Below are positions 6,716 through 36,055 of a DNA stretch of 36,055 bases, piece by piece. Positions within the stretch are counted from its first letter, which is position 1, and every line of letters begins with the position of its first letter. Under the pieces are notes generated by a model. It was given only the letters and a program-made list of their open reading frames with translations. It made no database searches and was not told where the DNA came from. Source of the DNA: Desulfobulbaceae bacterium (GTDB lineage Bacteria; Desulfobacterota; Desulfobulbia; Desulfobulbales; Desulfobulbaceae); assembly GCA_024763055.1 (NCBI GenBank), contig JANTGH010000021.1, forward strand, positions 1-36,055. Reading direction: 5' to 3'. The position numbers and the translations under genes were made by a program.

Positions 6716-6723
6716 CCTTTATT

Positions 6724-6909
6724 TGATGGACTCGTAGAAAGTCTGAACAATTCTTAAAGATGGTTAAACAAAGATATACAGGTAAGCACCCCGAAGGAGC
6801 GACTCCTAAGAGTAATGTTTCAGGGCGGGTCTTAATTAGACATGTAGTATGCCTACGAATCGCCCTGGGGCATACGACGCAGTAGATCGAAGTTTTTACG
6901 ACGCCATCT
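6724..6909. repeat. Dispersed structured repeat element, copy A (186 nt)
   Basis: This element recurs at 35850-36055. Its ends are inverted copies of each other (left GATGG..TCGTA, right TACGACGCCATC), like those of a MITE or a hairpin RNA. The right half contains a long block almost identical in both copies (GCGGGTCTTAATTAGACATG and onwards), closed by a 7-bp stem CAGGGCG (6821-6827) with CGCCCTG (6861-6867). The element fills the gap between the Nudix gene (+) and the FKBP gene (-). It contains no open frame of note. It might also act as a transcription boundary for both genes. Confidence 0.8.
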
Positions 6910-6942
6910 TATCTAACAGTAAGAGCAGGCTCCTTCTTTATT

Positions 6943-31568: not shown

Positions 31569-31644
<76 letters not shown>

Positions 31645-35849: not shown

Positions 35850-36055
35850 TGATGAACTCGTAAAAAATACAGACAGTGCTTAAAGATGGCTAAGTAAAAA
35901 CACAGGTATACAGGTAAGCGAGCCTGCGAGACTCCGGGTAAGCGCAGACTCCGAGGAGTAGTGTTCTGTGGCGGGTCTTAATTAGACATGTAGTATGCCC
36001 ACAAATCGCCACACGACACACGACGCAGTAGATCGAAGTTTTTACGACGCCATCA
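35850..36055. repeat. Dispersed structured repeat element, copy B (206 nt)
   Basis: This is the second copy of the element at 6724-6909. The outer arms TGATG..TCGTAAAAA (from 35850) and TTTTTACGACGCCATCA (ending 36055) are inverted repeats. The internal 7-bp stem is TGTGGCG (35967-35973) with CGCCACA (36007-36013). It is 20 nt longer than copy A because a GGTAAGCG..GACTCCG unit is duplicated (35913-35936 and 35937-35953). The element ends exactly at the last base of the window. Confidence 0.8.

Follow-up and report, generated by a model that had tools for sequence, protein, structure and literature searches.

The DNA analysed here (the window) is an entire contig of 36,055 bases from a Desulfobulbaceae bacterium. 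It contains the same palindromic element twice, and the locus raises the question of what kind of element this is and why its internal stem stays paired while the stem sequence changes. An earlier note, made from the letters of this contig, described two copies with inverted ends and a seven-pair stem, of which three pairs differ between the copies with every change matched on the other arm. Both descriptions were confirmed, and the limits of the copies were refined to 6725-6908 (copy A) and 35851-36054 (copy B). The parts of the two copies are as follows.

6725..6908, + strand: copy A, 184 bp, GATG...CATC (BLAST, covariance model)
6719..6724, no strand: left target-site copy of copy A, TTATTT (sequence reading)
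6909..6914, no strand: right target-site copy of copy A, TTATCT (sequence reading)
6725..6744, + strand: outer left end of copy A, terminal inverted repeat GATGGACTCGTAGAAAGTCT
6759..6779, + strand: inner left repeat of copy A, GATGGTTAAACAAAGATATAC, 34 bp from the outer end
6802..6813, + strand: small hairpin of copy A, ACTC/GAGT, within the optional modular segment
6815..6827, + strand: covarying stem of copy A, left arm
6829..6856, + strand: tip region of copy A, with the small hairpins GTCT/AGAC and GTAG/CTAC in its sub-type
6861..6873, + strand: covarying stem of copy A, right arm
6878..6908, + strand: right end of copy A, CGCAGTAGATCGAAGTTTTTACGACGCCATC, the best-conserved part family-wide
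35851..36054, + strand: copy B, 204 bp, with a modular segment longer than that of copy A
35851..35870, + strand: outer left end of copy B
35885..35905, + strand: inner left repeat of copy B, 34 bp from the outer end
35961..35973, + strand: stem of copy B, left arm
36007..36019, + strand: stem of copy B, right arm, with one C.C mismatch
36024..36054, + strand: right end of copy B

The seven pairs (CAGGGCG/CGCCCTG at 6821-6827/6861-6867 in copy A, TGTGGCG/CGCCACA at 35967-35973/36007-36013 in copy B) turned out to be part of a true stem of 13 pairs, 6815-6827/6861-6873 and 35961-35973/36007-36019, respectively. The covariance-model match in copy A spans 6807-6909. The flanks of copy A agree at five of six positions, as in a decayed duplication, and the right end of copy B coincides with the contig end.

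Compared with 200 dinucleotide shuffles each, the predicted RNA fold of copy A surpassed 196 (z -2.3) and that of copy B 188 (z -1.7). Each copy alone is therefore only mildly unusual in its folding, and the case rests on the family. A site scan of copy A found no promoter-like or terminator-like site. No open reading frame of at least 100 aa overlaps 6725-6908, and its 184 bp can hold at most 61 codons. Rfam gave no family at gathering score for either copy in the window, the sole match being a tRNA gene at 31569-31641 on the + strand. Searched by itself, copy A gave nothing up to E 1, and 12 further loci gave just three microRNA matches, all under the gathering score.

Both repeats in the window are members of a gene-less mobile DNA family. 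BLAST with copy A, in which the best 40 of 124 candidates were scored, gave copies of 75-100% identity. A covariance model of the element core (R1, 103 positions) gave 119 matches, nine of them on the opposite strand of another match and some places being repeated contig ends, or about 110 places in the 4.17-Mb host genome. The ends of the element read TGATG...TCGTAAAAA / TTTTTACGACGCCATCA. A motif fitting both ends, GATGRNNTCGTAAAAA, had 224 genome matches with up to one mismatch, against seven for the reversed pattern.

Element length was 138-227 bp in the 141 elements measured, with 100-260 bp allowed. Sub-types differ in three respects: an optional segment, AGGTAAGCG-(NAGCG)n-GACTCCGAGG, the tip and the sequence of the stem. 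Contigs stop inside copies or exactly at them, as at position 36055 of the window and in C163, C225 and C101. The repeat thus breaks the assembly; copies lie at many contig ends, and a covariance model would allow them to be annotated.

The host genome also holds a second family of about 101 bp, with the same left end GATGGACTCGTAAAAA and a right end of the type GTCGGTNTCG... (L043:1052-1150, L044:875-975, L045:906-1006 and L046:336-436). Target duplications are visible there as AATTGT at L046 and AAATAT at L045. Two members of the main family, L165 and L217, are interrupted by a different sequence, CACCCCAAGGGCACTTACTGCGGGCG... in L165 and a related-looking insert in L217.

Mobility was judged from the flanks. 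Of 217 distinct right ends, 141 could be measured, the rest having no left end in the allowed ranges or not enough flank. Exact target duplications of 6-8 bp flanked 105 of the 141 elements, whereas about 1.5 were expected when flanks were re-paired at random (6-7 bp). The duplications were of 6 bp in 79 elements, 7 bp in 25, 8 bp in one and 5 bp in two, and 34 elements had none. The 6-bp target had the form A-N4-T: of the 79 sites, 73 began with A and 71 ended with T. If TGATG...CATCA is taken as the ends, the duplications read as 4-5 bp inside A...T.

A second end motif, GATGGCTAAGTA, lies inside the left end of the element. When scanned from 15 to 45 bp, 122 of the 141 elements had it 32-35 bp from the outer motif, 18 had it at 22-23 bp and one at 44 bp. 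These steps are near a helical turn, which would be consistent with proteins bound at two sites facing the same side of the helix.

The elements are thus short and without coding capacity, and they have the terminal inverted repeats and target duplications by which MITEs are recognized. Target duplications together with inverted ends point to a MITE-like DNA transposon. The earlier note had left a MITE, a REP-like element and a family of structured RNAs side by side; the duplications favoured the first and spoke against the second. The third, as described below, survived in the form of a conserved fold inside a MITE.

A transposase gene between the same ends was looked for. No end pair flanked the nine DDE_Tnp_1 or three rve loci of the host genome, or 30 of the 32 rve loci matched in 12 relatives, with flanks of up to 1.5 kb per side in both searches. 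Thirteen long end-pairs were seen in 11 loci; eight ORFs from six of these loci (L180, L192, L208, L221 and L237 left out) all belonged to non-transposase families.

Another genome of the phylum, G308, had 291 matches to the left and right ends with up to two mismatches in 2.5 Mb, against 0 for the control. This is an extreme load of the element, and many of the matches lie near contig starts. Seven of its left ends were odd; eight ORFs from six of them (L339 left out) contained no transposase, six matching non-transposase families and two no family.

A weak test for an empty site was provided by the FKBP gene, orthologues of which were present in six of the seven congeners. The element adjoined the gene at none of the six loci, three of these genomes having no R1 match and gene order differing on the gene's other side.

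The pairing was then compared over many copies, since two copies alone were insufficient to show that the stem reflected more than a recent copy event. Alignment A2 contained 32 of the 40 BLAST copies, including those with unmatched arms (L010, L014 and L025). This plain alignment had 38 double-change cells, against 16.5 in shuffled controls and at most 5 in slid controls. Alignment A3 (37 copies) was the source of R1. Because A3 left out L010, L014 and L025, we relied on A2 and on A4.

A4 contained 95 model matches from 94 sources, in 94 distinct rows, and so covered part of the roughly 110 places; a few of its rows may show one copy twice, from two contig ends. It gave 166 double-change cells, against 63.8 shuffled and at most 11 slid, in an alignment fitted to the structure and so biased toward it. 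Pairing in A4 was 93.4% of cells (shuffled, 85.3%), and the covariation score was 0.298 (shuffled, 0.153).

For a cross-lineage comparison 32 loci were sought, of which 25 gave 26 inner elements and seven gave none. An inner-hairpin model, R2, was made from 24 of the elements, with L210 and one of the two from L231 left out. The 24 were 94.2% paired and had 103 double-change cells, against 37.9 shuffled, with the reservation that a control slid by +1 reached 55. One single pair was seen as GC, CG and UA, although further pair types were not above the shuffles, of which 136 of 500 reached the observed number.

Across lineages, the stem sequence changed almost fully and the pairing stayed. Sequence was well conserved, on the other hand, at the ends, in the unpaired internal loops and in the tip TATACAT...GTATG. 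The inner element was 127-131 nt in copies without the optional segment. Nineteen copies from other families were predicted to form the same hairpin, yet with other stem sequences.

In all three alignments compensatory changes were in excess of both shuffled and slid controls, as expected of a conserved structure. Matched changes thus held up in the 94 distinct rows. With further copies present and their stem changes compensatory, the structured-element claim of the earlier note passed the check set for it, and its statement that this is not just a recent copy event stands.

R1 found the element in 24 of 57 genomes, host included. Four of the seven congeners had at least 69 matches each, with counting capped at 70, and three had none. 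With R2, the element was seen in 69 of 297 phylum members, host included, spread over 46 of 199 genera. Copy numbers per genome from R2 are lower bounds, the best 11 candidates at most having been scored in each, and those from BLAST and R1 over several genomes are likewise lower bounds. The right-end pattern occurred in at least 106 stretches of named genomes. Among the matches listed, 98 were titled Desulfobulbaceae, Deltaproteobacteria or Candidatus Desulfobia, and eight were titled Pseudomonadota, Proteobacteria or Bacterium BMS3Bbin09.

To find which strand folds, the left arm was aligned with the reverse complement of the right arm, so that both strands were treated alike; 121 of 185 hairpins, with a symmetric score of at least 30, were used. 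Imperfect pairs were G.T on the + strand in 264 cases and on the - strand in 47. Without 16 nt of the tip, the numbers were 203 and 18. Counted per element, 108 favored the + strand, four the - strand and nine neither. All eight sequence clusters, four of them single copies, favored the + strand.

Folding energies gave the same direction. For 165 of 180 inner elements the + strand had the lower minimum; 300 random pieces, drawn from the fetched loci and perhaps containing some elements, were divided 132 to 167. All 19 copies from other families had the lower energy on the + strand, but their wobble count was only 39 to 23, and in copies L324-L334 alone it was 16 to 17.

The changes were also placed on a tree of the host-genome copies (105 columns of A4, midpoint-rooted, parsimony averaged over 50 resolutions). 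On its internal branches, changes to G.U (8.2) and to A.C (9.0) were equal. Given also the wobble counts in other families, the bias therefore rests on older wobbles that lineages share. Wobbles counted from each strand's own minimum-energy fold (near-equal G.U, 55 and 57) were dropped as biased.

The asymmetry of wobbles and energies argues for a single-stranded fold of the + strand, as RNA or ssDNA. Mutation acting unequally on the two strands, in connection with transcription of the element, is another possible source of the bias.

We consider the family to be probably a non-autonomous, MITE-like one, in which the + strand fold is selected through the copies that spread. A trans-acting transposase, presumably of the DDE type, would cut at TGATG...CATCA. 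Insertion would go into A-N4-T targets with duplications of mostly 6-7 bp, as the observed ends, duplications and target preference indicate. The two left end motifs, mostly 33-34 or 23 bp apart, may be two transposase-binding sites on one helix face.

In copies lacking the optional segment, the interior forms a single imperfect hairpin of about 128 nt that reaches from the inner left repeat to the right end. Its internal loops are conserved and its tip is bulged, and covariation shows that its stem drifts freely but stays paired. A + strand RNA transcript or ssDNA may be read by some protein during propagation, and the fold would be selected solely through copies that spread.

A more specific version is a tentative suggestion only: mobility itself may depend on a folded one-strand copy, RNA or ssDNA, whose hairpin of about 128 nt is read besides the terminal repeats. 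Stems would then drift as recognition-neutral paired arms, and decayed copies would fall out of the race.

A real rival, left out by the earlier note, is that the element is a plain MITE in which template switching between the near-palindromic arms makes matched changes without selection. In L210:465-593, the right arm reappears, exactly reverse-complemented, over most of the left arm. This suggested that arm conversion, or misassembly mimicking it, occurs and could match changes without selection. L344 and one end in L355 start with left arms that resemble right arms, and copies with mixed, unmatched arms exist (for example L010, L014, L017, L025, L027 and L032).

Conversion would erase the unpaired internal loops, yet these were conserved across lineages, and it would act equally on both strands, yet G.T was 264 to 47 in favor of the + strand. 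Moreover, a converted left arm was found in just one of 180 inner elements. Arm conversion may contribute to the matched changes, but as their whole explanation we hold it rather unlikely.

Selection through spreading copies has a counterpart in selection by the host. The element could be a host-beneficial structured RNA, or a 3'-UTR or terminator element like ERIC or NEMIS, that is mobile by chance. Its stable + strand fold would suit such a role, and copies with readable flanks adjoin or separate gene-sized ORFs. Transcripts of ERIC and NEMIS have been reported, in the available parts of PMC2229807, to affect neighboring mRNAs.

The fate of resident copies speaks against such a role. On the terminal branches of the host-genome tree, Watson-Crick pairs changed to A.C in 33 cases, to G.U in 25 and to other mismatches in about 16, with about one compensated change. 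Resident copies lose pairs without a preference for G.U, and there is no sign of constraint on the fold. Selection on the hairpin, as read by the earlier note, finds support between lineages but none in resident copies.

The genes nearby gave a similar result. In 43 host copies flanked by 400 bp or more on each side (ORFs called by a simple method, element length fixed at 190 bp), the upstream gene had the same sense in 24 and the opposite sense in 19. There is no sense bias, and the position of both window copies past the 3' end of a + strand gene, pointed out in the earlier note, is no rule. The loss of pairs in resident copies and the lack of a sense bias suggested a role of the fold in propagation and none for the host. 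With no terminator-like or promoter-like site in copy A and no match in three of seven congeners, a host-beneficial RNA is decidedly unlikely.

It could also be supposed that the element is REPIN-like and moved as ssDNA by a Y1 (RAYT) transposase. The hairpin has conserved ends and a diverged middle, its fold is strand-specific, and GTAG lies near the hairpin foot. REPINs with their RAYTs are likewise described, in the text available of PMC3116915, as hairpin-forming mobile doublets, non-autonomous and with conserved ends. They differ from the present family in that the latter has target duplications, of 6-8 bp in 105 of 141 elements. REP and REPIN elements are moved by a Y1 tyrosine transposase and are not known to make target duplications, nor is Y1 transposition. 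The duplications therefore render this origin most improbable.

A DNA cruciform, protein-binding or replication-related and selected as double-stranded DNA, is scarcely tenable, because the strand asymmetry of wobbles and folding energy is unexpected for extrusion of two strands, even though the inverted repeats are long and both DNA strands can fold. Of the folded RNA or DNA hairpin proposed in the earlier note, the single-strand fold was retained and a cruciform disfavored. The structured-RNA option was likewise retained, on covariation and strand asymmetry, as a fold inside a MITE that matches no Rfam family.

Geobacter is a near relative in the bacterial classification, and Correia/NEMIS elements have TA as their target. 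Small structured mobile repeats are an established kind, with NEMIS, ERIC, CIR and RUP among those named in the portion of PMC2229807 at hand. Chunjie, a MITE of Geobacter uraniireducens Rf4, has TIRs and direct repeats and is 178-235 bp long, with 38 copies having TIRs and DRs and 57 partial copies, according to the available text of PMC10969869. It resembles the present family in its TIRs and direct repeats and is close to it in size and copy number; the part of PMC10969869 at hand reports neither covariation nor a strand-specific fold. The present family may be kin to Chunjie, with which it is likened by description, not by sequence.

QMITE2 of Coxiella burnetii is about 190 bp at full length and has 78 copies with TIRs, 7-9 bp direct repeats and a stable predicted transcript fold (PMC10969869, in part). 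It is like the present family, again by description, in size, TIRs, direct repeats and predicted fold; it differs in lineage, and the same partial account reports no covariation test.

Correia/NEMIS elements of Neisseria are also small, dispersed and of two main sizes through an internal segment, and hairpins in their transcripts have been proposed as RNase III substrates (PMC2229807, available sections). They differ in sequence and host, and their longer form has an IHF site and putative promoters (same sections of PMC2229807).

ERIC/IRU of enterobacteria is a 127-bp repeat that can be folded as RNA, and its orientation matters for its effect on mRNA, as stated in the text seen of PMC2229807. 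Its sequence and host group are different, whereas the present family is unbiased in gene sense and its stems covary across lineages.

No description of the present family was found in the literature on MITEs of Desulfobacterota, Deltaproteobacteria and sulfate reducers, searched by titles and abstract openings, mostly open-access. Structured MITEs are known; new is a MITE family whose single-strand fold is conserved by covariation over a phylum.

Bacterial MITEs are usually seen as decaying inverted repeats, whereas the present family keeps its fold across many bacterial families. The claim that the structure is selected during spread and not in the host can be tested. The end motifs, the target rule and the structure model R2 make a clean system in which to ask if a transposon requires an RNA or ssDNA hairpin of its own.

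Matches outside chromosomes were sought as well. Plasmids gave no match for two elements, and phages no match for one. Among viral contigs, one stretch matched the first of two patterns and none the second. The viral contig IMGVR_UViG_3300037247_002436 (L335) carries the exact right end of the element.

The single-contig genome G012 contains a 53-bp remnant (L144:1468-1520), which has both ends without the hairpin. It is preceded by CAGCTT and followed by ACAGCTT.
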